Shown here: positions 4,491-25,688 of the stretch, one piece after another
Layout: the number at the start of each line of letters is the position of its first letter
Numbering within the stretch: position 1 is the first letter of the stretch
NCBI RefSeq assembly: GCF_042100115.1
Contig: NC_091280.1
Span: 2,108,001-2,172,000 of the forward strand
Length of the DNA: 64,000 nucleotides
From: Alternaria dauci
Lineage: Eukaryota; Ascomycota; Dothideomycetes; Pleosporales; Pleosporaceae
Direction: 5' to 3'
The notes under the pieces: generated by a model
The model's input: the letters and a program-made list of their open reading frames with translations, nothing else
What the model was told of the DNA's origin: nothing
The model's database searches: none
Program-made: the position numbers and the translations under genes

Positions 4491-5265
4491 GTTGACCTAG
4501 GAATAATAAAAACGATGAGAAATAATTGAGCAGTTGGCGCGACTAGGGCAGAAGATGTGAGGCTCTTCGTCTGAAGTAACTTGGGATGCGAGAGCGGAGG
4601 GGCAGCACCTCCGGGACCGAGGCTGCCCGTTGACGGCAGAACTACACCATCATCGTCTGGCATACGCGATAGCCACGCGTTGTGCCGATGACAACGCGTG
4701 GAGACATGGCATCAGTCGACAGAAGTATGGGAGGGCAGCCCGTCATGTGTACGTATAGGAATGCGGTGCACTCGTGTCCAGACGCCCTGGAGGTACAATG
4801 CGGGGTGCACGGTGAGAAGAGCGGTGCATGTCAACGCGACATGACAAATATACGGGAGCCGATTGCCGTCGTGTGCATGCAGGCGGTCAGCAAGGCGGAA
4901 GAGGGCCCCTGACACCAAAAGTGCTAGCGCATCCAGACAGTTCACCGGGGAGAGCACCTGGGAGATTACTCGAACCGCGCAGGGACCCGGCCAGTCGTAT
5001 ACCCATCAGCTGCGCCGCGTGTACTCTTTTTTCCCTCCGACTGCTGGTGACTTGGAATCATTACTGCCAACTCGCTTTCACTTGTCCTGGCCCAGCAATT
5101 CGCAGCAATTCCCATCGTGACGAGTGACGGCAGCCGGTTTCCTGCCAACACCACCATGGCCCTATAACCACCCACAACCCGAGCAACCACAGCCTTCCCC
5201 CCACGCGACCTCGCCGGAAGGAAATATCCTCGTAATTCCCTTCGTTCCCCCGTGTCTTTGCCATC
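4491..5265. promoter_or_regulatory. divergent intergenic region, hydrolase / phospholipase D
   Basis: Separates two divergently transcribed genes and so must carry both promoters. The 150 bp before the phospholipase ATG are C/A-rich on the plus strand, as is common in fungal 5' leaders. No specific factor site was identified. Confidence 0.5.
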
Positions 5266-8200
5266 ATGGCTGGCTCCAACAGCTCCTCGCCCATGGCACG
5301 CAGTCCCCGGTCCAGATCACCGGCAGTATCAGCAAGGGCAGACGACTCGGGTCGACTGCTCCCCCCGCTGGCGTCGGGACAGGTCCGGAATGAGACTCAA
5401 GACATACACAACCCGGGGCCGTTGGACGGCGCCCCCAAGATCATGCGGTCCGCCCCAACAGGCTCGCCCTTGTCCACCAAAGAAGCCGGCGAATTCCCCT
5501 TCCATGCGCCGGCGAATGCGAACGGGGGCAGTATCCCCCTCGAAGCCGCCGACGTCGCCATGCGCGCCCCGAAACCCTCGTCGCACATGTCGAATGCCTC
5601 CACCAGCTCCTACTACCCTCCCTTTGCGCCCATGTCGAGACACCCCACCGAGAGCGAGCTCTCCGACGCCCCACGAGAACGCAAGAGCGTCCAGTTCGCG
5701 CGTTCAGCCACATTCACAGCCGACCCGCCCGCAGCAGACTCGCGGCAGCAGTCATGGGAGGTGGACGAGGGCGAGGGAAAGGGCAAGGAGCGGATTACAC
5801 CAAGCTCGTCACTCATGGGCAAGCTGAGGGCACTGGCCGCCCCGATCCAGGGACACGGCCGGAGCCTCAGCGCTCTGACAGCTGCCGGCCACGAAGGCGG
5901 CTCACCACACGGCCAACTGTCGCCCACGTCTGAGCTCGACGAGCCGCGGTACGACAGCGAGGCTGACGCTGATGGCGAGTCGAGCGCTGGCGAGGGGGCT
6001 GCAAGGAGACCGAGACAAAAGAGGCGGAAGAGCAGCCGGCGCTGGTTCGATGGCGAGGGCGAAGGCACTCAGACAGCCCCGACCACGCCCAAGCAGTCCA
6101 CCGGCGGCTTCTTCTCGCGTGACTCACCCAACATGACACCCACTTCGACCCGTCCGGGCTTCCTGCGCCGATCGACCATGGACGACATACCCGAGAACGA
6201 GCGTCAGGGCTACTCAGAGGACGAAGGCCGCTCGCGCATCGCAAAGGAGAGCGCCTGGACACGCGGGCTGCACAGTGCAAGAGGACTCTCGTACGGGGGT
6301 CTGCGGAGACACGACCCCAACGCTGAAGAATCCGAAGGACAGAGCCGGCCCACGGGCAACTTGCGAAGCCTGACTACATTCAGGGGCGCTGCTGGTGAAG
6401 CTGGACAACCCTCACCATGGCGCATGCGTAGCGAACGAACATCGAGTTTGAGCGCCCAGAAGTGGAAGTCGATCAAGAACAGCCTGAAGCTTTTGGGGAA
6501 CCGTCAAAAGGCAGAACGCCAGATTGATCACGCAAAGTCGGCAGAACTCATGGCCGAACTGCTTGCAGGCGCACCCGCAGCCTTGTTCTTCGCGAGTATG
6601 TTTCAGCGCGATGAGCATGGTCACCGCAGGATACCAGTCCTCCTTGAGCAGCTCAAGGTTACCATCACCGACACGGACCGCCCCGCCAAGAAGGAGGGCG
6701 ATCGCCACACGGCCTTGCGTATTGAGTTGGAATACGGTAGTGGTCTGACTAGGATGAAGTGGGTTGTCTACAGGAGCGTTGCCGACTTTGCGAACCTGCA
6801 TCTGAAGTTCAAAGTCCAGGAGAAGCAAGACGCCTTCCGTAGTCGTCCGGCTAACCGCGTGCGAGAGATCAAAGACAAGACCGCCAAAGACGGCGAGAAC
6901 GAAAAGGAAGAGGAGAAAGAAGATCCGCGGACCAAGCTTCCGCGCTTCCCCAGGAGTGTTTTGCCCTACCTTCGAGGACTTCGCGGCTATGGCATCTTGG
7001 ACGACGAAGGCGAGGAAGAAGAGGAAGAGGTTGCAGTTGGCGGTACAGCCAGCGGACCCGAAGGCGATGCAAGCGCTACCGAACGACCAAATAAACCCAA
7101 GCGGGGAAAATCTTCATTCCTCGGACGTAGGCAGTCCAGCGTAAGTGGAAGTCAGGCCCAGGGCGCTGTCGCTGCACTCGTAGCGAGACAAGGCAGTTTT
7201 GCTGGGGCCGCTGGCCAGCCTCTACAGGCGAAACAGACCCATCACGACCGGCAACGGAAGAAGCTGGAACAATACCTGCGAGGTCTCATGACCTATCTCA
7301 TCTTCCGCCCTGACAGCAATCGCCTGTGCAAGTTCCTCGAGCTGTCTGCTCTTGGTGTTCGCCTAGCCGCTGAGGGTGGCTATCATGGCAAGGAAGGGTA
7401 TATGATGATCAAATCTTCAAAGGGCGTCGACAACAGGAAAGGCTGGACTAAGCTCGGCATGATGAACCGCCACTGGCCCAAATGGTTCTTGGTAAGGCAC
7501 AGCTACGTTGTCTGCGTAGACTCACCCGAGGAGATGAACGTCTATGATGTCTTCTTGGTCGACGCCGACTTCCATCTCGACACTAAATCCGCCAGAATAA
7601 GAGATAAAAAAGCCAGAGATCTTGCAAGCGAGGCAAAGGCATCTGCGACAGGTCATCACCAGCTGAAGCTCGTCAACGCCGAACGCAAGATGAAGTTGCT
7701 TGCTCGCAACGAGCGGATGCTCCATCAGTTTGAGGAGTCCATTAACTTCATGTCACAGAACACACTGTGGTCTCAACGCCAGCGCTTCGACAGCTTTGCT
7801 CCCGTGCGCAAGAAGATCTACGCGCAATGGCTCGTAGACGGCCGCGACTACATGTGGAATGTATCTCGAGCAATTAGTATGGCGCGAGACGTCATCTACA
7901 TTCACGACTGGTGGCTCAGTCCTGAACTGTACCTGCGTCGCCCAGCCGCCATCAGTCAGAAGTGGAGGCTGGACAGATTGCTCCAGCGCAAAGCACAGGA
8001 AGGTGTCAAGATCTTTGTGATTATGTATCGCAACATCGGTGCTGCTATTCCTATTGACTCCGAATACTCCAAGTTCTCTCTGCTCGATCTCCACCCGAAC
8101 ATCTTCGTTCAGCGATCGCCAAACCAGATCCGTCAGAACACATTCTTCTGGTCTCACCACGAGAAGATTTGCGTTATTGACCACACTGTAGCTTTCTGTG

Positions 8201-11031
8201 GAGGCGTTGATCTGTGTTTCGGTCGATGGGATACACCACAGCACGTTGTAGTTGACGACAAGCCTACAGGCTTCGAGCTGGATGACACACCCAAGGATGC
8301 CGACCACTGTCAGCTGTGGCCGGGTAAGGACTACTCTAACCCCCGTGTGCAAGATTTCTTCGCCCTCGACAAACCCTACGAGGAGATGTACGACCGCTCC
8401 AGAGTTCCTAGGATGCCATGGCACGACGTCGGCATGCAGATTGTGGGCCAACCAGCCCGCGACCTGACCCGTCACTTCGTACAGCGGTGGAACTACCTGT
8501 TGCGCCAGCGCAAACCTTCTCGGCCCACGCCCTTCCTTCTTCCACCACCCGACTTCAACCCAGCCGACATTGAAGCGCTTGGGCTGGACGGAACTTGCGA
8601 AGTCCAGATTCTACGTTCTGCTTGTGCTTGGTCACTGGGTACGCCCAACAAGGTCGAGCACAGCATCATGAACGCATACGTGCAGATGATTGCCACTTCC
8701 GAGCATTTTGTTTACATTGAAAACCAGTTCTACATCAGTAGTGGCGAGGTGCTTGGGACGAAGATTGAAAACAAAATCAACGATGCGATTGTCGACCGCA
8801 TCAAGCGTGCTCACGCCAACGACGAGGACTGGAGAGCATGCATCATGCTTCCGCTGATGCCTGGATACCAGAACACTGTCGATGAGCAGGAAGGCAGCAG
8901 TGTTCGCCTTATCATGACGTGTCAATATCACAGCATCTGCCGTGGCGAGGGTTCCATCTTCGGCCGCTTGCGAGCTGCCGGCATTGAGCCGGAAGACTAC
9001 ATCAACTTCTACGCACTGCGATCGTGGGGCGAGATTGGCCCAAACAAAATGTTGGTAACAGAGCAGCTGTACATCCACGCCAAGATCATGGTTGTCGACG
9101 ATCGAGTTGCCATCATTGGGTCTGCCAACATCAACGAGCGTTCTATGCTGGGATCACGAGACTCTGAGATTGCCGCTGTCATTCGCGATACTGAATTGCT
9201 TGATTCGTACATGGGTGGTCAGCCATACAAGGTCGGCAAGTTTCCGCACACATTGCGCATGCGCCTCATGCGAGAGCATCTCGGTGTTGATGTTGACTGC
9301 ATTTCCGAAGAAGAGATGCTCAGCCAAATGTCTGATGCCGATAGTGTCGGGTTTCAGACTGAATCCTCTGGACCTGGATCGCCTACAGCTCAGCGTGCGA
9401 CCGAAGAGAAGTTGGAAGAGAACCACTCCAGGATGCAGGATGAGCTCATCCAGAAGGCGGAGAGACTACACAGCTTCAACCATGACTTTGATTGGGCGCA
9501 GGACCAGAATCCTCATCTGCAAAGCGTCAAGAAGCCATCAGCCGATTCTCGAGTCCAGCACAACTCTGCGCACAGCAAGGATGTTAGGGGAGAGGGTACT
9601 GACCATATGCTTGAAGCTGTAGAGACCCGGCCAGTCACCACCATAGCCCGAGACTCCTACATCGACGAGCATGGTCATGAAAAACTCGTCACCGATATTG
9701 CTGCAGAAGGTGCTGCGGCTACACCACGAAAGAGCGCGACGCTCAGGACACGGAAGCGTAGTGGCACCACTGGTACCCGGACCAGCGCCATCAGCGCACA
9801 AACCGAAGGAACCGGTTATGCTGGCCTGCCACCTCCTAAGCTACCCCGTATGGACACGCTGAAGCTAGGCCTGACACAACTCAGTCAGCTGCCTGCTTTG
9901 CCGCTTCTGGATGATACCGACATTGGCGGTCCACCTGCCCTACAGCGAACCGTCAGCCAAGGTTCTTCCTCCATCCTCAATCCCCTTCTCTCCGAAATGC
10001 GTCGACCCATCATCACCGAAGACTGCATGCGTGACCCCATCAACGACACCTTCTTCCTGGACACTTGGCACCAAGTCGCAGAGAACAACACGAAGCTCTT
10101 CCGCCAGGTCTTCCGTTGTATGCCTGATAACGAGGTCCGGACATGGAAAGAGTACCAGGAGTATGCTGCCTTTTCGGAACGCTTCACCAAATCTCAAGGT
10201 GGAGACAAGAGCCAGATGCACAAACAGCAGGAAGCACCAGGTACCACTGGACCACCCGGTACCGGTCTCACAAGCAAGTTCACATCGGGGGCTGGTGCTG
10301 TCGGCAAGCAAGTCGGAGCCCTAGGCGAGAAGCTCAGCGAGAAGATGACCAACAACTCGGACCGCGTCAACGGCGAGAACGTCCACGGATCAACGCACCA
10401 CTCGAGCATGGGCGGCGTAGAACAATGGGCCAACGACCAAGAGAAACGCGTGCAATCCCAAAGCCCGCCTCCACCCACACGCGGTGGTCTTCACGTCGAA
10501 ACAGCATCCGGTTCGACCCTCAACGAGAAGCTAGCCCCAGAACCCGCTGACGATGCGGTCGTATCGCCTATGAACCCCGCTCCTCCGGAAAAGACTTTCA
10601 CATTCCCTGCTCCCCCTCCTATACCGAATGATCACACATCCCACATGGATTTTGCGAACCAAAACGCACCACCACAAACATCCCACTCGATGCGCGACCG
10701 CTCCCAACGCGTCACCATTTCCGAACCCCCAATCCACCCCTCCGCTCTTCCACAGAACCAAACTCACAACACCTACCAAAACGGAAACACGCCGAACCGC
10801 TCGAACACGAAACGCTCGCAGCGGCGCCGTGCGACGACCAAGAGCTCGAATAGGCAGTTCCATGCGACGGATGCGGATATCATGTTGGATAAGGAGGATG
10901 CGAAGAGGTTGTTGGAGTTGGTGCAGGGGCATATTGTGTTGTGGCCGTATGATTGGTTGGAGAGTGAGGAGAGGGGTGGGGGGTGGTTGTATAATGTGGA
11001 TCAGATTGCGCCGTTGGAGATTTATAATTAG
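5266..11031 (+). CDS. SPO14: phospholipase D, Spo14/PLD1 type, 1921 aa
   Basis: Phosphatidylcholine-hydrolysing phospholipase D, which releases phosphatidic acid at membranes and is involved in vesicle traffic and, in yeast, sporulation. Order: a long disordered Ser/Pro/Arg-rich N-terminus (1-450); a PX domain (about 455-570) with an acidic insert; a PH-like domain (about 710-820); and the catalytic core. Both HKD motifs are intact: His965-Lys967-Asp972 (HEKICVID) and His1271-Lys1273-Asp1278 (HAKIMVVD, followed by GSANINERS). The C-terminal tail, rich in Pro/Thr, ends in the conserved block HIVLWPYDWL...PLEIYN. The gene is a single uninterrupted frame. It is longer than the yeast protein (1683 aa), mainly because of the disordered N- and C-terminal stretches. 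The ATG context (catcATGGC) is good. The PX-PH-HKD order identifies the PLD1/Spo14 family with confidence. Confidence 0.95.
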   Translation: MAGSNSSSPMARSPRSRSPAVSARADDSGRLLPPLASGQVRNETQDIHNPGPLDGAPKIMRSAPTGSPLSTKEAGEFPFHAPANANGGSIPLEAADVAMRAPKPSSHMSNASTSSYYPPFAPMSRHPTESELSDAPRERKSVQFARSATFTADPPAADSRQQSWEVDEGEGKGKERITPSSSLMGKLRALAAPIQGHGRSLSALTAAGHEGGSPHGQLSPTSELDEPRYDSEADADGESSAGEGAARRPRQKRRKSSRRWFDGEGEGTQTAPTTPKQSTGGFFSRDSPNMTPTSTRPGFLRRSTMDDIPENERQGYSEDEGRSRIAKESAWTRGLHSARGLSYGGLRRHDPNAEESEGQSRPTGNLRSLTTFRGAAGEAGQPSPWRMRSERTSSLSAQKWKSIKNSLKLLGNRQKAERQIDHAKSAELMAELLAGAPAALFFASMFQRDEHGHRRIPVLLEQLKVTITDTDRPAKKEGDRHTALRIELEYGSGLTRMKWVVYRSVADFANLHLKFKVQEKQDAFRSRPANRVREIKDKTAKDGENEKEEEKEDPRTKLPRFPRSVLPYLRGLRGYGILDDEGEEEEEEVAVGGTASGPEGDASATERPNKPKRGKSSFLGRRQSSVSGSQAQGAVAALVARQGSFAGAAGQPLQAKQTHHDRQRKKLEQYLRGLMTYLIFRPDSNRLCKFLELSALGVRLAAEGGYHGKEGYMMIKSSKGVDNRKGWTKLGMMNRHWPKWFLVRHSYVVCVDSPEEMNVYDVFLVDADFHLDTKSARIRDKKARDLASEAKASATGHHQLKLVNAERKMKLLARNERMLHQFEESINFMSQNTLWSQRQRFDSFAPVRKKIYAQWLVDGRDYMWNVSRAISMARDVIYIHDWWLSPELYLRRPAAISQKWRLDRLLQRKAQEGVKIFVIMYRNIGAAIPIDSEYSKFSLLDLHPNIFVQRSPNQIRQNTFFWSHHEKICVIDHTVAFCGGVDLCFGRWDTPQHVVVDDKPTGFELDDTPKDADHCQLWPGKDYSNPRVQDFFALDKPYEEMYDRSRVPRMPWHDVGMQIVGQPARDLTRHFVQRWNYLLRQRKPSRPTPFLLPPPDFNPADIEALGLDGTCEVQILRSACAWSLGTPNKVEHSIMNAYVQMIATSEHFVYIENQFYISSGEVLGTKIENKINDAIVDRIKRAHANDEDWRACIMLPLMPGYQNTVDEQEGSSVRLIMTCQYHSICRGEGSIFGRLRAAGIEPEDYINFYALRSWGEIGPNKMLVTEQLYIHAKIMVVDDRVAIIGSANINERSMLGSRDSEIAAVIRDTELLDSYMGGQPYKVGKFPHTLRMRLMREHLGVDVDCISEEEMLSQMSDADSVGFQTESSGPGSPTAQRATEEKLEENHSRMQDELIQKAERLHSFNHDFDWAQDQNPHLQSVKKPSADSRVQHNSAHSKDVRGEGTDHMLEAVETRPVTTIARDSYIDEHGHEKLVTDIAAEGAAATPRKSATLRTRKRSGTTGTRTSAISAQTEGTGYAGLPPPKLPRMDTLKLGLTQLSQLPALPLLDDTDIGGPPALQRTVSQGSSSILNPLLSEMRRPIITEDCMRDPINDTFFLDTWHQVAENNTKLFRQVFRCMPDNEVRTWKEYQEYAAFSERFTKSQGGDKSQMHKQQEAPGTTGPPGTGLTSKFTSGAGAVGKQVGALGEKLSEKMTNNSDRVNGENVHGSTHHSSMGGVEQWANDQEKRVQSQSPPPPTRGGLHVETASGSTLNEKLAPEPADDAVVSPMNPAPPEKTFTFPAPPPIPNDHTSHMDFANQNAPPQTSHSMRDRSQRVTISEPPIHPSALPQNQTHNTYQNGNTPNRSNTKRSQRRRATTKSSNRQFHATDADIMLDKEDAKRLLELVQGHIVLWPYDWLESEERGGGWLYNVDQIAPLEIYN

Positions 11032-11817
11032 AGGGTTGGGCGGAGAGAAATGGGGAAGGAGGGGGAGTTTAGTGGGAGTACTTTTTTTGAAGATTTTCTT
11101 TCGCTGTCTGTTTTGTCTCGCGTCTTGATGGTTGACTTGCTGCATAGTTGGGGGTTAGGTGGGAAGGAAGGCAGTATATTGCGCTGTCGTTTGTATATAT
11201 TTATATCTTTTTCTGGTCTTTTATAATATTTGTCTGGAAGACTTTGGTCTCTTTCTCTTTCTCTTTCCTTATTCTTTGCTTTTACCCAATGGCAACGTCT
11301 TCCGTCGTTTGCGTGTTTTGTTAGAAAATTGGGATTAGTAAAATAATAATATTCATAGATCTAGGCTCGAGAATGGATTGGAGGAAACTCCGTCTTTCAC
11401 GTCACTTTCATATCGCTCGCGCTTTCCTACACTTCTTTCAGTCGTTATTGCATACGAATGTGTGATGTGGCTGCAGTATTGTCTACTTGGCCCAGTCTAA
11501 TTGGGTATGTTAGCACTATAACGGGCCTATTCTCACAACGAGCTGAGCTGGTAGATCGAGTATATGTACGTCTACATCTTTCCTTGTATATCCCTATCCC
11601 TGACGTTACAGCAGATTTCTTGCTGGAGCTTTCGAGATTCTTTCTGCTATCAAAGGACTACTACCTAGGTACTGTCTCGTAGTTGACTCGAGACTTTTTC
11701 CGTTACCGTGTCACCACAACACAACAACAAATTAACCGCCTCGCTCTGATCGTAAGTCGAAACTTGTTTCATCAAGCGGATATACTAAATAAGGCCATAG
11801 AATCAGTGCTACACCAC
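11032..11817. other. 3' region of phospholipase D and upstream region of the bacterial-type locus
   Basis: T-rich after the phospholipase stop. It contains one perfect TACCTAGGTA palindrome (11662-11671) about 150 bp before the MazG-like start. An open frame just upstream of the MazG ATG, in the same phase, has no recognisable content. Confidence 0.5.
11662..11671. repeat. TACCTAGGTA palindrome, copy 1
   Basis: Perfect 10-bp palindrome, one of four identical copies in the window, all outside recognised coding sequence. Confidence 0.8.
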
Positions 11818-13948
11818 ATGGGCGAAACCTCAGTCCGCGACGCACTCGTGGCATTTGCCGCGGAGCGTGATTGGCAGCAATTCCACACTCCCGAGAACCT
11901 CGCCAAGAGCATATCCATCGAAGCAGCAGAGCTGCTCGAGTGCTTCCAGTAGAGCGCAGACGCTGATCCAAAGCGTGTGCGCGAGGAACTCGCAGACGTT
12001 CTGACGTATTGCCATCTACTCGCTATCCGCATCGGAGCCGACCCGGATCAGATTGTGCTCGAGAAACTGGAAGTCACGCGCAAGAAGTATCCTGTGGACA
12101 AGGCGCGAGGTGTGAGTACAAAGTATGACAAGCTTGTTCCAGATAGCTCGAGTTGAGTTCTCTAGACCTGCTGTTGCTACGTAGAGGTCGCAGGATGAGA
12201 AACATGGGAACTGGCCGGTGGTATACGTGCTAGACAACGATGGCCGCCCGGGCGGGAGAAATTCGAACAATGTGCTAAGACACATCTACGTTGGAGAATC
12301 GCTTAATGCCGTGGGTCGATTGCGCCAACACCTCGAAACACCAGCTAAACAACATCTCAAGAACGCTCGGGTCATCCTGCACGAGAAATACAACAAGTCG
12401 GTCTGTCTGGATCTGGAGTCGTATCTTATCAGAATGATGGCCGGTGACGGCGCGAATCAAGTACTTAACCGAAACAACGGCATCACCGATGCGCAATACT
12501 ACCAAAGAGAAGCATATCGCGCAGGGTTTCGTGCCATGTTCGAACAACTCAGATCCGACGGTGTGTTTACGCGCAGTATTCCGGAAATCGAAAACAGCAG
12601 TCTCTTCAAGCTATCTCCTTACAAGGCGCTGACGGAAGACCAAGCGGATTCCGTCGAAGAGATTCTTACCAGGTTCTTCATCGACCTCTCGACGGGCGGG
12701 AGAAGCAATATCGTCATACAGGGCGACCCAGGCACTGGCAAGACAGTCGTGGCTATATACCTGATCAAACTCCTTGTCGATATTGCAGCGCTCAACTCCC
12801 TCGATGATCTGGACAGCGACTCGCGATTCTCTGAGTTCTTCACTGCCGGAAATCAGCAACTCCTCCAAGATTGCAGAATCGGGCTCGTCGTTCCACAGCA
12901 ATCGTTGCGCGGCACCATCAAAGACGTATTTAGAAAGACGCGCGGGCTCCATCCGGACATGGTCATGACGCCGTTCCAAGTAGGAGAAGCAGATGGCATT
13001 TTCGACCTGCTCATAGTCGACAAGACGCACCGGCTCAATCAACGCGCTAACCAGCCGTCGGGAGTGCTCAACGGGAAGTTTATGACTATCACAAGACATC
13101 TGTTTGGCAGCGACGACTTCAGTAAGACGCAGCTTGACTGGATCCTGGCGAAAAGCAAGCAGCAAATGTTTCTGCTAGATGCGATGCAGAGCGTCCGACC
13201 AGCTGATCTTCCACAAGAACTGCTCTCAGCACTCGTTTCCGATACACGTGCAACGGGCCAGCATTTCCAGCTCCGCACTCAAATGCGTGTACAAGCAGGT
13301 TCCGACTTCGTATCTTACATCCGATGGATTCTCGATCCCAACCCTCTCTCTGTCCCACGAGCACGACTGAATCTCGGAGAATATGACTTTCGCGCCTTCG
13401 ACACCGTGGAAGAAATGCGAGACGAAATCTTCCAGCGCAACGCTGAAGCCGGGCTTTCGCGCATAGTCGCAGGCTACGCGTGGGAGTGGAAGACACAAAA
13501 GGATAAGACGGCGTTTGATATCGAGATTGGCGATACGAAACTCCGCTGGAATAGTACGCCGACGGATTGGGTGTCGTCTGACAATGCGCTGCAGGAAGTT
13601 GGGTCGGTGCACACGGTACAAGGCTACGATTTGAACTACGTGGGTGTCATAATCGGTTTGGACTTGCGCTTTGATCCGCTCCGACGACGGCTTTATGTCG
13701 ATCGCGACTCGTACTTTGACAAGAAGGGCAAGGAGAATAATAGGGCGCTTGGAAGGAAGTATTCGGATGACGACTTGTTGCGGTTTATAACTCAGATCTA
13801 TGCTGTGCTTTTGACTCGCGGGATTCGCGGCACGTATGTGTATGCATGCGATCCTGGCTTGAGAGCATATCTGTCCGACTTCATCCCGTCGAGTTCTGGG
13901 AATCCTGTCAATTCGGTTTTCAACTCTGGCGGTGACGCTATTATCTGA
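11818..13948 (+). pseudogene. MazG-like + GIY-YIG/DUF2075 helicase, bacterial type, interrupted by TAG
   Basis: The model is exon 11818-12111 and exon 12185-13948 with a 73-nt phase-0 intron (GTGAGT...TAG), about 686 codons. Residues 1-98 are a MazG-like nucleotide pyrophosphohydrolase with the metal-binding pattern EAAE (35-38) and ELAD. Codon 45 (11950-11952) is TAG where the family usually has Trp (after ECFQ). Residues 110 to about 175 are a GIY-YIG-like module (VVYVL...HIYVGES, then LDLESYLI). The rest is a DUF2075/Schlafen-group-3-type ATPase-helicase: Walker A GDPGTGKT at about 278-285, Walker B IVDKTHRLN with Lys378 replacing the catalytic Glu, then conserved blocks such as VHTVQGYDLNYVG and LLTRGIRGTYVY. 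Such sequences are bacterial, often actinobacterial, with MazG and helicase as neighbouring genes. The helicase frame of 588 codons is otherwise clean, so it may be translated alone from a downstream start. Confidence 0.8.
12112..12184 (+). other. predicted intron joining MazG and helicase parts
   Basis: Donor GTGAGT and acceptor CGTAG, phase 0 on both sides. The first bases of the intron still read as VSTKYDKL in the MazG frame. That resembles the usual tail after the family's KYPVxKxxG block, which suggests former bacterial coding or spacer DNA turned into an intron. Confidence 0.55.
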
Positions 13949-14145: not shown

Positions 14146-15207
14146 TCACGTCTCCTTGAACCCAATAAGCTCATTGCTCATGGCCCACAGTCTCTCCTCA
14201 CCCTCGGGGTCATATGCCCACTCTGCATAACCTGGCTCCATAGGTCCTTGCCCCTCCCGAACCGGCTTACTAACCTGGCAATTCTCCAGATACAAGCCTC
14301 CCTTCCCCTCCAACACGTGTGCCGTCGCAGCCCACACCGTCGTAGCAGCGCCCTGCTCTGGGGTCTTACGCGTAACCGCCAGCACAGGATCATTCTCATA
14401 AGCAGCAAATTGTTCCTTTGGAACAAACTTGGACAGCGCTGTGAAGATGACGCCTGGGTGGAGCGACAGCCCGTGGAGACCCTGCGCCCCGTAGTGTCGC
14501 TCAATGTAGTTTGCAAACCAGATGTTTGCCATTTTGGCGTGGGCGTAGGCACGGTCTGGATGGTATTCGCCGTTGCGCAGCTGGAAATTGTCGAGATTGG
14601 GGGGGAAATAGCGATGACCCATTGATGCTACGCTGATCACGCGGGAGTGGAAATCGGGTTTGGAGGAGGCCAGGAGCGCAGGCTTGACGAGCTGGAAGAG
14701 CAAAAGGTGCGCCAGGTGGCAGGTGCCTACTTGCAGTTCGAAGCCATCTTCAGTGGTGCCCTCTGGGCAGGACATGATGCCCGCGTTGTTGATGAGGATG
14801 TTCAGCTGGTTGTTGCTGGCGGCGAGGAACTCGGCAGCAAATTTGCGAACAGATGTGAGGGAGTTGAGGTCAAGGTGGCAGAGCTCGACCTTTCCGGGCT
14901 CAAGGATGTCGCCAAGGGCTTTCTTGCCCTTTTCCAGATCACGGACTGTAGCGAAGATGTGGGCACCGGTCAACTTGAGGGCACGGGCAGTCTCGATACC
15001 GATGCCAGAGCTGCAGCCAGTGATTAAGATGGGTTTTCCGGCGAGCTTGCCAGCGAGACCTTCGTCTTTGATAATTTGCTCCGCAGTTGGGCGTGCATCG
15101 CCAGGGCCCTTGGGGTTCGCATGGACAGCAGCGTAACGCGTAAACTCGGGAGAGCTGTATTCGGCTGGGTCAAAAGCTGGAAAGGGCAGGTTGATGGAGA
15201 GGGGCAA
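14146..15207 (-). CDS. short-chain dehydrogenase/reductase, 353 aa
   Basis: NAD(P)-dependent oxidoreductase of the classical SDR family, in the WW-domain-oxidoreductase/retinol-dehydrogenase-like group common in fungi. Rossmann motif TGCSSGIG at 63-70; NNAG at 140-143; catalytic Ser near 195 (SVAS); YxxxK at Tyr221-Lys225 (YAHAK); LHPGVIFT follows, as expected after the active site. An extension of about 55 residues precedes the fold. There is no membrane segment or signal peptide. The gene is intronless and converges on the bacterial-type locus, with about 200 bp between the stops. The substrate is unknown. Family assignment is firm. Confidence 0.92.
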   Translation of the reverse strand: MPLSINLPFPAFDPAEYSSPEFTRYAAVHANPKGPGDARPTAEQIIKDEGLAGKLAGKPILITGCSSGIGIETARALKLTGAHIFATVRDLEKGKKALGDILEPGKVELCHLDLNSLTSVRKFAAEFLAASNNQLNILINNAGIMSCPEGTTEDGFELQVGTCHLAHLLLFQLVKPALLASSKPDFHSRVISVASMGHRYFPPNLDNFQLRNGEYHPDRAYAHAKMANIWFANYIERHYGAQGLHGLSLHPGVIFTALSKFVPKEQFAAYENDPVLAVTRKTPEQGAATTVWAATAHVLEGKGGLYLENCQVSKPVREGQGPMEPGYAEWAYDPEGEERLWAMSNELIGFKET

Positions 15208-15667
15208 GTGAAGAAACTTGGAAAACAGGAGAAGTTGAGTTGAGATGTAGGAAGTATGATCCAGAAGAGCTGATACTGTGATTTGGATTGATTGTGGAAG
15301 GATAGAGACACATTATATAGTTCATTAGCACAACGGACACATTTCGAGACAACTGCCATAATTGCACAGCCAAGACATGAATTAGCAATACATTCTGGAG
15401 TGAAGACGGGGTTGAGATTGTCAATTTGGATCTCGGGATGCGTAGGTTCCTGTTCAGATTCTCATTCTAGTGCTGTGTACTAAAATGGACGTGCACTTGA
15501 TTATGGGGTAGGTCGGAGGTTTCGGAGCTAGGGCGGACTTAATTGTGCAACGAACGAAGGTAGCCCAGGCGCTTGTTGGGCTGAAACACATTGTTGTTCA
15601 AGCTATCCAAAGACCAATCGCGTTCTCAATGTTTGATGCTCAGTGGACCGATACCTGTTTTCATCCC
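15208..15667. other. intergenic, no gene seen
   Basis: Upstream region of the minus-strand dehydrogenase and downstream region of the minus-strand gene ending at 15668. Only short unsupported frames. Confidence 0.5.
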
Positions 15668-22762: not shown

Positions 22763-25688
22763 TCAAAGAATCGTGACGCGGACCTTTGGATCCTCAGCTG
22801 TGATCATGCCCCAAGATTCCCCCGATTGTGTCATCTCGATATCTTCCAGTCTCAGCCCATTCAGATCCGGGTATGGTTCATCTCTCCTTGGTTTCTTCTT
22901 GTTTTCACCGCTGTTTGTAAAGGTTGCGAGGCCAATTCTCTCAGCATTAGCCACTGCCTGGAAAACCCACGTTTTCGTCTCTGGCCTCTGCTGAATCTGT
23001 TCGATGATGTCGTTCGTGGTAAGGATAGCTTCAGGCATACGATCAAGCTCACGTTCCAGCACCTTCCTCAATGGCTCGTCTAGTTGTGAGGCTGAAGGGC
23101 TTGGTCGCGGGCGCAACACGAGAGCGTTTCCCGAATCGAGGAACAGGGCATAGAAATTTGGTGGTAGAGGTTCATCACGATGGTCAAGATACATGTGCCC
23201 CAGGGAAATGCCGCGATTGTCACCTGGCAAGAAGCGAATCTCGACTGGCTCTCCGTGTGTGGCCCACTCGTTGTCTCGGCGAGCGCGAGGGAAGATTTCG
23301 TAGATAGGGCCCTGGTCATGTCAGTAAAAGCTCTTTCATCCAATGCTGGGGTTCAAAGTAAAGAAGAGTCATACCTCCATCACGAGCTTGCCCGCCTTTA
23401 CCTTCCCGTACTCATCGACACCACTCGGTGTGGTAGAACAGCTAATGATCCGACAAACGAGACTCTTGTAGGTGAGAGGAAGGAATTGGACAGGTGCATC
23501 CAGCGACGCCCACGACCACGAGGGCGCTCGGTATTCTTCCAATCTTGTCACACGGCCTAACAATTTCCCCTTGACCGGAGTTTCGCCTTCGAAGGACTCT
23601 TCCCACGGGTAAACGCGCCAAAACAAATCTTCTGGGATATGACGCGCCCAAAGCCCAGCAAGATACCGGTCTCCGGTTGCCTTGGCCAACATTCGCGCTA
23701 AACCGGATAATGCTGGAAGCTTGTCTGGTCGTTTCGTCAGCTCTCGCAGAGAGTAATTCTGAATCAAGCTAAGCCATCCACCGTCCCATCTTCCATAGTT
23801 TTGTGGTGTCGGCTGATGGCCTGGGATGAAAGACATGCTATCTTCTGTTACGCCGTGGTCCTTGAAAGGAATCATATGAGTATCAATTAGTAGGTCCAGG
23901 TTAAAGAATTTGTTTGGCAATTTGAACCCGTCTTCAGATTGCACCGTGCAGTCGCACTGGAAGTATATTTGATCCTTGGCGTAATGAACAACCCTCGAAG
24001 GAAGGAGTCGTTCTTGCAGTGTCCAGCCACGACTACTCAGCGGTTCATCTTCGAGCGGATCCAGGACCTGACCAAAAGAACCGATCATGGCCATTTGTGG
24101 CGACTGCGTGCAGGAGCCTGGGAGCCACTCTTTGAAGAAGTACATATTGGAGTCGTTGTTGCTATAGAGATTGGGAAGCCTTATCTTCTTTGCAAGCGTG
24201 TTCGGGCCTCGAGCGTGAACTGTGGTATTGTAACCTAGTGATCGTGACGGCGATGAAACATAGGGCGTATCCGTACGCTGCGGGAAACAGCCCGTCTGGC
24301 TATCGGTAGAATTCGCTGCGGCGATGGTGATGTAGGAATTGTAGTAGTACTCTCCTATTCGCGACGCCTCGTATTCCCAATTAAGACCGCCGACTGAATT
24401 TTGTATGATACAGAGACAGTCTATCCACAGAAAACGGATACCCAGACGACGGGTAATTTGAACTGCATCCCGAAATGTTTTTGGAAGCGAAGCAACCATA
24501 ATCCCGCGTTTCGGGTCTTCATAATTCGATACGGTAGCTGTGAGCCTCGACGACGTACCCCATCGGTGGCTCAATGCGATATATTTGCCGCGTGCACCAA
24601 GGCTCTCATAAAGCGGTATCGATTCATCAGAACCCGAAACGTCAAGTACTCTAGTGGGCAGTAATGGGTTCTCCGGTGGGCCTCTGCATGTATGGTGTTT
24701 GGTGCCGTTCTCGATCCAGTGGCTGATCCGTTCGTACGCTATGCTCGAGCTGGAATCGATCTCAGGAAACCGACGAGGCATGCACGGTATCGGAAATGCT
24801 AGTGGACTTAGTGATGCGGGCTTTCTATGATAATCTGCAGGTGAAATACTAACCACCATCCGTGGATACCGAGAGAGCACTTCCGCGGATATGTACGTCT
24901 CTCCTGGGGTTGTTGATACTATCAAACACATGACCAGACGTTCCAAATCGAGCACCGATACCCATGATGTACCACCCATCGATGGGATTTCCACCAGTCT
25001 CCGGCTGGTTCCAATGGTTACCATACAGCCAGATTCCCATGTTCTTCGGGATCTGCGCGCCTAATTCATTTAGGGTAACGGCGGCACTTTCTACTGGTTC
25101 GACATCCTGAGCCTTTGTGAAACCCGTGACACTCACGAATACTGAACGTGAATATATCATCTCAGTATCCCACTCAAATTTCATATGAGTGAAGTAGCCG
25201 CCACGTTCTCCAGATACAACATCTGATTCGAATTCAGGCATGGCGGGTCCTAGTTCCTTGATGTAAGCTGCCCTACGGACATTGTTTCCGCGTTCGTCTT
25301 GAGGCACACAGACAGTCTCATAGCGTCTCCAGCAAGGGCGACTACCCGGTGGACGTTCCTGAGAGCGGCGAAAGTTGGAAACGGCGGCATGGAAAACGAA
25401 TGCGCAGAGATTGCACGTTTTCATGGAGTCAATTAGGGCTTGAAGAGACTCATGGTGGGGTTCTCCTTCCTCATCTTCGAACGGCAGGCAGTACCAGTTA
25501 ACCCGCTTGCAGGTGTCACACAAGACAAGCTCGTTATCCATTCCCGTCTGTGTTTGTGCTAACCTCGGTGCGTCCGACGGATCTGTAGAGGTTGCAAAAG
25601 GACTTTCATCCACTTGTGGCTGTTGTGATTGTGAACTGGCTGACGGAGGCTTCCAACGCGATCGGAGGCGTCTGCTTGGCTCTATCAT
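22763..25688 (-). CDS. HET-domain protein, 935 aa, three exons
   Basis: Heterokaryon-incompatibility-type protein. Exons (minus strand): 25688-24854, 24798-23375 and 23311-22763, with introns of 55 nt (GTTAGT...CTAG, phase 1) and 63 nt (GTATGA...CCAG, phase 0). The joined frame is exactly 936 codons including stop. The N-terminal region carries LCDTC and CNLC Cys pairs (about residues 57-95), as in many HET proteins. The HET domain spans about 345-450, with YIALSHRWG, LGIRFLWIDCLCIIQ and YITIAAANS. GWTLQERLLPSRVVHY and RAPSWSWASLD follow, both typical of the family. The C-terminal exon has the usual ending with ERIGLATF. Function is inferred as a non-self recognition or cell-death trigger; many family members have no proven role. 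The 25688 ATG is the first in frame; Met50 is an alternative. Confidence 0.9.

Follow-up and report, generated by a model that had tools for sequence, protein, structure and literature searches.

How does a two-gene operon of bacterial type come to stand in a fungal chromosome, and what becomes of it there? Kominek et al. reportedly described in 2019 an iron-scavenging operon that had been transferred into yeasts. The portions of PMC13376923 and PMC11952965 drawn on here treat the transfer of bacterial operons into yeasts as known, both for an iron-scavenging operon and for thiamine salvage operons, and describe the transferred operons as having been rearranged or adapted to eukaryotic-style expression. 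In the same portion of PMC11952965, operon structure is said to be retained in none of the cited examples, the genes having become monocistronic units, and the open question is raised of how a bicistronic operon from bacteria is first handled by a eukaryotic host.

The locus described here lies in a stretch of 64,000 nucleotides of the Alternaria dauci genome (the window; NC_091280.1, positions 2,108,001 to 2,172,000). It has in common with the yeast cases, as those portions describe them, a multi-gene bacterial operon in a fungal chromosome, and it differs in that the gene overlap is kept, the cargo consists of a nucleic-acid enzyme and a nucleotide enzyme rather than a metabolic pathway, and the copy is broken. 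What is new is that an overlapping operon for a nucleotide enzyme and a nuclease-helicase can still be recognised, by its layout, in the chromosome of a fungus, and that possible splice sites lie where they would matter most; the gene overlap is visible, and a candidate intron lies where fusion of the genes would solve the bicistronic problem. The reading we prefer, at a probability of roughly 0.6, is that a defence-type operon, serving bacteria as an anti-phage or anti-mobile-DNA module, was transferred, kept under constraint, perhaps remodelled in part into a eukaryotic gene, and recently inactivated.

A MazG and nuclease-helicase pair between fungal genes

Both genes lie on the plus strand. 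The first, a MazG-like (PF12643) nucleotide pyrophosphohydrolase frame, extends from start codon to stop over 11818..12156 with one in-frame TAG at 11950-11952; the second, a gene for a GIY-YIG nuclease joined to a Schlafen-group-3 helicase, occupies 12125..13948, begins with an overlapping start codon of bacterial type, and carries an in-frame TAG at 12182-12184. The two frames overlap by 32 nt (12125..12156). With the MazG start codon at 11818 and the helicase stop at 13946-13948, the span given in the original prediction, 11818-13948, is exact. Both terminators are TGA, and both internal stops are TAG.

On the part of the MazG frame downstream of its TAG (11953-12153), Pfam gives PF12643 at E 1e-14 and 55 bits, above the cut-off of 27, and a family search of the genome scores the whole frame, with its one TAG inside, at 68.7 bits. 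The ExxE...ExxD module that had been read from the sequence is present as E35, E38, E57 and D60 of the MazG alignment. The best match of the MazG profile is to dCTP pyrophosphatase 1 (DCTPP1) chains, at E 9e-24, so that the frame has in common with DCTPP1 and the MazG-like all-alpha NTP pyrophosphatases both the profile match and the motif, and differs from them in being broken at an invariant Trp.

The helicase frame is uninterrupted from 12185 for 587 codons, and its first Met is codon 84, which lies 3' of the GIY-YIG match. That match (PF01541; 12269..12433, residues 29-83 of the open frame) scores 19.9 bits at E 9e-4, just below the curated cut-off of 22.6; Y14, Y35, G37, R45, E78 and N95 of the open frame, which we take to be the GIY-YIG catalytic residues, are identical in 34 of 34 alignment rows. 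The superfamily 1 helicase domain (PF09848, SLFN-g3_helicase or DUF2075; 12704..13852, residues 174-556) matches at E 3e-61 with 208.1 bits against a cut-off of 24, covering positions 2-354 of a profile of 354. Of the Walker A and Walker B sequences, presumably the ATPase motifs of the helicase, Walker A is intact as GDPGTGKT (12722-12745). An AlphaFold2 model of the helicase gene product has a mean pLDDT of 83.8, a pTM of 0.83 and an SF1 helicase core, and the folds nearest to it include SLFN11, SLFN14, UvrD and FBH1, at identities of only 13-16%. What sets the predicted protein apart from these Schlafen-group-3 or DUF2075 helicases is its N-terminal part, which is the GIY-YIG match, sub-cut-off as it is, by Pfam. 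Searches of NCBIfam and of PDB sequences with the helicase profile gave weak partial helicase matches only, the best in each being RecG (1.7e-5 and 7e-6).

The surroundings are fungal, again as predicted. A phospholipase D gene lies upstream (5236..11031, plus strand, stop-to-stop frame; PLDc, E 3.5e-16) and a short-chain dehydrogenase (SDR) gene downstream (14146..15312, minus strand, stop-to-stop frame; adh_short, E 2.1e-16), within 0.8 kb and 0.2 kb of the locus, respectively; Pfam also places a pentafunctional AROM gene in the window, away from the locus. Searches of this genome by protein, DNA and MazG family each give a single place. The window also holds a HET-domain (heterokaryon incompatibility) gene at 23372-25060 on the minus strand. 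Elsewhere in the genome, the sole 5.8S rRNA match among the best candidates scored falls at C7:2724500-2726500, in a stretch saturated with changes of C-to-T type; its indices (TpA/ApT 2.05, (CpA+TpG)/(ApC+GpT) 0.06) are those of heavy repeat-induced point mutation. The spacer beneath these changes would seem to resemble that of Alternaria section Infectoriae or of a near relative in the Pleosporaceae.

Could bacterial sequence have been joined to a fungal contig by mistake, or could the stops be errors of the consensus? Every break affects just one codon, standing alone, which fits such an error, yet the window lies 2.1 Mb inside one contig of a 34.9 Mb, 10-contig assembly, the fungal frames stand close by on both sides, the codons are host-like (see below), and a Walker-B codon is changed besides the stops. 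In addition, tblastn against the fetched bacterial loci found no remnant of them in the flanks. An artefact of this kind is exceedingly improbable, and contamination as such is unlikely because the contig is of megabase size, fungal genes lie on both sides and the codons resemble those of the host.

Bacterial relatives and the origin of the pair

A short-pattern scan of a prokaryote-only (bacterial and archaeal) genome collection found 51 loci that are close relatives, all actinobacterial (Micrococcales, two being named only Actinomycetota) and mostly from Microbacteriaceae, with Cryobacterium, Mycetocola, Salinibacterium, Plantibacter, Herbiconiux and Microcella among the genera. MazG lies upstream of the helicase in 50 of the 51 (the other, L048, is a partial match); in all 30 of the loci taken from a second search, which partly repeats the same organisms, MazG is present as well. 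The pairing had been claimed to be a bacterial arrangement, and a two-gene operon in 50 of 51 actinobacterial loci agrees with this. A 14-nt overlap joins the genes in 47 of the 50 MazG-bearing loci, the exceptions being L017, L024 and L041. Within the family of Cryobacterium gelidum the presence of the operon is patchy: of 398 genomes, 109 have a match at or below E 1e-30, and no match exceeds 67% identity.

The fungal copy shares with operons of Micrococcales such as those of Cryobacterium gelidum (L010), another Cryobacterium (L004) and Naasia (L011) the two genes, their order and the overlapping start, the second start codon being retained at the bacterial position; its overlap measures 32 nt because the first gene's stop sits further downstream. 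Identity to the nearest of these relatives is about 61-67% for the helicase, 67% being the best, and up to 79% for MazG. The fungal copy has two TAG codons, a Walker-B Lys, a 32-nt overlap, host-like codons and candidate splice sites, whereas the aligned bacterial copies keep the Walker-B Glu (50/50) and the MazG Trp (51/51).

Among ORFs of at least 80 aa, no third operon gene was found, the largest flank cluster being common to eight loci, all Cryobacterium. In viral contigs, none of the five stretches with a pattern match encodes a relative. Four phage records gave a match, one of them at 50% (L053). That record, MT836409.1, is an unannotated 10.6 kb contig named 'Bacteriophage sp.' from human faeces, and it holds both genes at 6661-8713 with a 20-nt overlap. 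Among plasmids, 39 records matched, the best at 32% among the matches listed. A Lactiplantibacillus plasmid (L055, NZ_CP028230.1), from another phylum, has an annotated nucleotide pyrophosphohydrolase that matches the MazG query directly before a gene of GIY-YIG/SLFN-g3 type; it differs in its 27-31% identity, in having a 17-nt gap rather than an overlap, and in a larger cluster with an annotated (deoxy)nucleoside triphosphate pyrophosphohydrolase, a DEAD/DEAH box helicase and DUF2357.

In the helicase tree, built from 53 rows (the window, 49 rows from the genome collection and L053-L055, with L048 and L017 dropped), the window groups with Naasia as its sister (95/70), within a Microbacteriaceae group. 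The nesting foreseen for a transferred gene appears in the best tree, but the AU test rejects neither a fungal copy placed outside 50 of the other rows, L053 and the 49 from the genome collection (p 0.355), nor one placed outside a 27-row core (p 0.188). The MazG tree gives no resolved placement. Mean identity is 61.7% between the window and the core, 54.8% between the window and other rows, 59.1% between core and other rows, and 70.9% within the core. Across the prokaryote, phage and plasmid collections, the two genes are adjacent in the donors and both are nearest to the same bacterial group. That the two genes passed together from a bacterium to a fungus is as good as certain, the direction leaning on operon structure and bacterial breadth more than on the tree, and the donor was in all likelihood an actinobacterium belonging to Microbacteriaceae or close to that family. 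This is what had been proposed at the outset, a joint transfer probably from an actinobacterium, and 51 of 51 actinobacterial close relatives, with an operon layout that the fungal copy shares, speak for it. As far as sequence can show, the whole two-gene actinobacterial operon entered the fungal chromosome as DNA from a Microbacteriaceae-like donor.

The fungal terminal branch is long (0.66), and one may ask whether the transfer reaches back to an ancestor of many fungi, most of which have since lost the locus, leaving the window copy as a survivor that has just died. Host-like codons and the long branch would fit such an age, but one can still see both the order of the operon and its overlapping start, which would be unlikely after so long a time, and we consider an ancient transfer very improbable.

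Conservation, interruption and candidate splice sites

Our preferred reading holds that the pair was kept under constraint after its arrival and inactivated only recently. The MazG frame keeps 28 of the 29 columns that are invariant in 51 bacterial rows (L055 left out), and the single one lost is the Trp where TAG 11950-11952 stands, a residue that is Trp in all 51 rows and in 30 of 30 further, partly overlapping loci; on account of this TAG, MazG is not an open reading frame. The position of TAG 12182-12184 carries Trp in most bacterial rows (38 of 50, and 27 of 30). In the Walker B motif (13019..13030), the Glu is replaced by Lys at 13022-13024, and this residue is Glu in 50 of 50 aligned rows and in 30 of 30 further bacterial loci, which partly overlap with them. 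Of the 114 helicase columns that do not vary among 50 bacterial rows, two differ in the window, one being the Walker-B residue and the other an I to V change. Individual bacterial rows depart from their own invariant columns at 0-3 places, and L053 at 10, in a count made without L048 (a partial match), L017 (second frame interrupted near its start), and L054 and L055 (too distant).

The stops at 11950 and 12182 and the loss of the Walker-B Glu are thus plain to read, and from them we infer that the copy is inactive. The fungal protein would be a Schlafen-group-3 helicase by descent and probably not an active ATPase, because the Walker-B Glu has been replaced by Lys. The original prediction saw here the best candidate for an undescribed system in the window; the wording suggests a working system, and as such it is not supported for a copy that TAG interrupts in both genes. 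Inactivation in this strain would be recent, through a stop in each frame, the second of which could be spliced out, and through the Glu loss with its presumed effect. A neutral simulation over 12185-13945 tolerates about 30 substitutions (1.7%) at most: the probability that no stop arises and that no more than two invariant columns change is 0.06 at 30 substitutions and 0.012 at 40. The few changes in the open frame therefore mean either that constraint was lost recently or that the transfer itself is recent.

Codon usage bears on the choice between these two. The codon score of the locus is +0.083 per codon toward the host, where 14 host ORFs in the window score 0.041-0.184 and all 23 core (closest) relatives are negative (-0.015 to -0.199); of 49 bacterial rows, seven also score positive, none of them belonging to the core, and the window MazG alone, at +0.018, falls below the host range. 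This score was used because GC3 alone overlaps with distant relatives: GC3 is 0.60 for the locus, 0.49-0.65 for three host frames, 0.69-0.91 for the 27-row core, and 0.49-0.65 for seven distant relatives. Host-like codons suggest, short of proof, residence under constraint in the fungus, during which the genes would have come to adopt host codon usage. An AT-richer unsampled donor combined with a recent transfer could mimic such amelioration.

The latter possibility amounts to an explanation in which DNA of an unsampled, lower-GC actinobacterial donor arrived recently, was never used, has no fungal role and has been decaying neutrally, the constraint being that of the donor. The small number of lesions fits a short neutral period, the operon overlap is nearly unchanged, and host-like codons do occur outside any fungus, in the seven relatives just mentioned. 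On the other hand, codon usage is unlike the host's in each of the 23 nearest relatives, the branch leading to the fungal copy is long and 398 family genomes contain no match above 67%, the flanks yielded no remnant of the fetched bacterial loci by tblastn, and consensus donors stand where a eukaryotic gene would need them. We consider this explanation unlikely, while granting it some weight.

Other sources of the stops were considered and set aside. Repeat-induced mutation gives a composite index of -0.53 at the locus and -0.52 in the whole window, with transition routes to a stop still open at 57 places in the helicase frame and seven in MazG, and TAG does not appear to be a reassigned codon, given that the neighbouring phospholipase frame ends in TAG.

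As for the donors, only two GTRAGT sites with a usable acceptor occur on the plus strand between 11032 and 12300, at 11752 and 12112. The first has acceptors at 11800 and 11806, among others, just 5' of the MazG start, giving a predicted 5' UTR intron of 49 nt (11752..11800, alternative end 11806; GTAAGT...CTAAA...TAG). The second has acceptors at 12165 and 12184, among others, and the predicted intron 12112..12184 (73 nt, phase 0; GTGAGT...TAG) is in phase: splicing it out would fuse MazG with the nuclease-helicase and eliminate three signals, namely the stop of MazG, the start codon of the second gene and the second TAG. Neither candidate intron contains a complete YTRAY branch consensus. 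Among bacterial operons, a frame-joining junction intron occurs with a GTRAGT donor in 0 of 49, with GTNNGT in 1 of 49 and with any GT in 43 of 49, these controls being mutually related and mostly GC-richer, with L017, L053 and L055 left out. In shuffled sequence, such sites arise under a loose branch rule in 4% of trials on the 5' side and 10% at the junction, and under no branch rule in 6% and 17%; across branch rules the range is 3-17% overall and 4-17% at the junction. Consensus donors that stand just ahead of MazG and where the two genes meet are suggestive, and a gain of splice sites may have begun to turn the bicistronic operon into one fused gene.

The first TAG (11950) persists even if 12112-12184 is spliced. 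Two ways of removing it were tried and rejected: no GTRAGT donor lies inside MazG 5' of this TAG, and an intron from 11752 to a point beyond it would take out the core of MazG, with no ATG left in frame further upstream.

If the junction intron is used, the locus might be working today, with the two genes fused by splicing at 12112-12184 and TAG 11950 either read through or edited, or with only a shorter product being made. The in-phase intron with its consensus donor, the contrast between TGA terminators and TAG internal stops, and the otherwise near-complete conservation would all suit a working gene, but there is no in-frame ATG from the first TAG to codon 84 of the open frame, the loss of the Walker-B Glu predicts a dead ATPase, and the TAG that ends the phospholipase frame indicates that TAG is a normal stop here, so a functional locus seems improbable. 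Returning to the preferred reading, one can go further and suppose that the overlapping operon became a single eukaryotic gene in place, by means of new splice sites, that it served the fungus, for example against foreign DNA, and that it was lately lost in this strain, with intact forms perhaps surviving in relatives; we regard this extension as possible, though rather doubtful.

A possible defence role for the bacterial operon

What does the operon do in bacteria? Its likeliest role is that of an innate anti-phage or anti-mobile-DNA module, a proposal to which we give a little less than an even chance. In such a module the helicase would travel along foreign or replicating DNA while the tethered GIY-YIG domain would cut it, and the MazG enzyme, nearest to dCTP pyrophosphatases, would lower dCTP or remove modified dNTPs that phage replication needs. 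Counted in its favour were the dCTP pyrophosphatase 1 match, the SLFN11/UvrD-type fold, the patchy presence, the lack of a third gene, and neighbours of defence type. These neighbours, a GmrSD restriction enzyme, a C5 methylase, Vsr, the MTES_1575 nuclease-helicase and a HamB-like helicase, come from ten ORFs chosen by eye for length or look, a non-random set in which three of ten lack a PADLOC match at E 1e-10. A defence role, which we infer from these hand-picked neighbours and from family resemblance, would mean that the bacterial operon, matched in 109 genomes out of 398 in the family, is plausibly a defence module not yet described, quite apart from its fungal copy.

Against PADLOC-DB 2.0.0 no full-length match was obtained; for the helicase the best was AbiO at E 1.2e-5 over 50 residues, followed by PDC-S14 at E 4e-5 over the GIY-YIG part, and the two MazG pieces gave none. 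That the helicase has just these weak partial matches counts against the defence role. Literature searches for the pair of MazG with GIY-YIG/DUF2075 (Schlafen) found nothing on the pair among the papers listed. The DefensePredictor study mentions an uncharacterised MazG defence domain, and in the main text of a BREX survey neither 'GIY-YIG' nor 'MazG' occurs.

Decay or interruption of the operon may take place in bacteria too. In Herbiconiux moechotypicola (L017, 2991-6161) the two genes are about 1.06 kb apart, with a stop near the start of the second frame, as if something had been inserted at the gene overlap. In seven genomes of the family (G321, G349, G158, G156, G277, G290 and G246), the helicase is in pieces, either as two parts kilobases apart or short; in G156 the piece lies beside a longer copy and in G246 at a contig end. 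In Microbacterium sp. G2-8 (L041, 4625-4930), MazG is five codons shorter and ends in a TAG just 5' of the second start, so that the two genes do not overlap.
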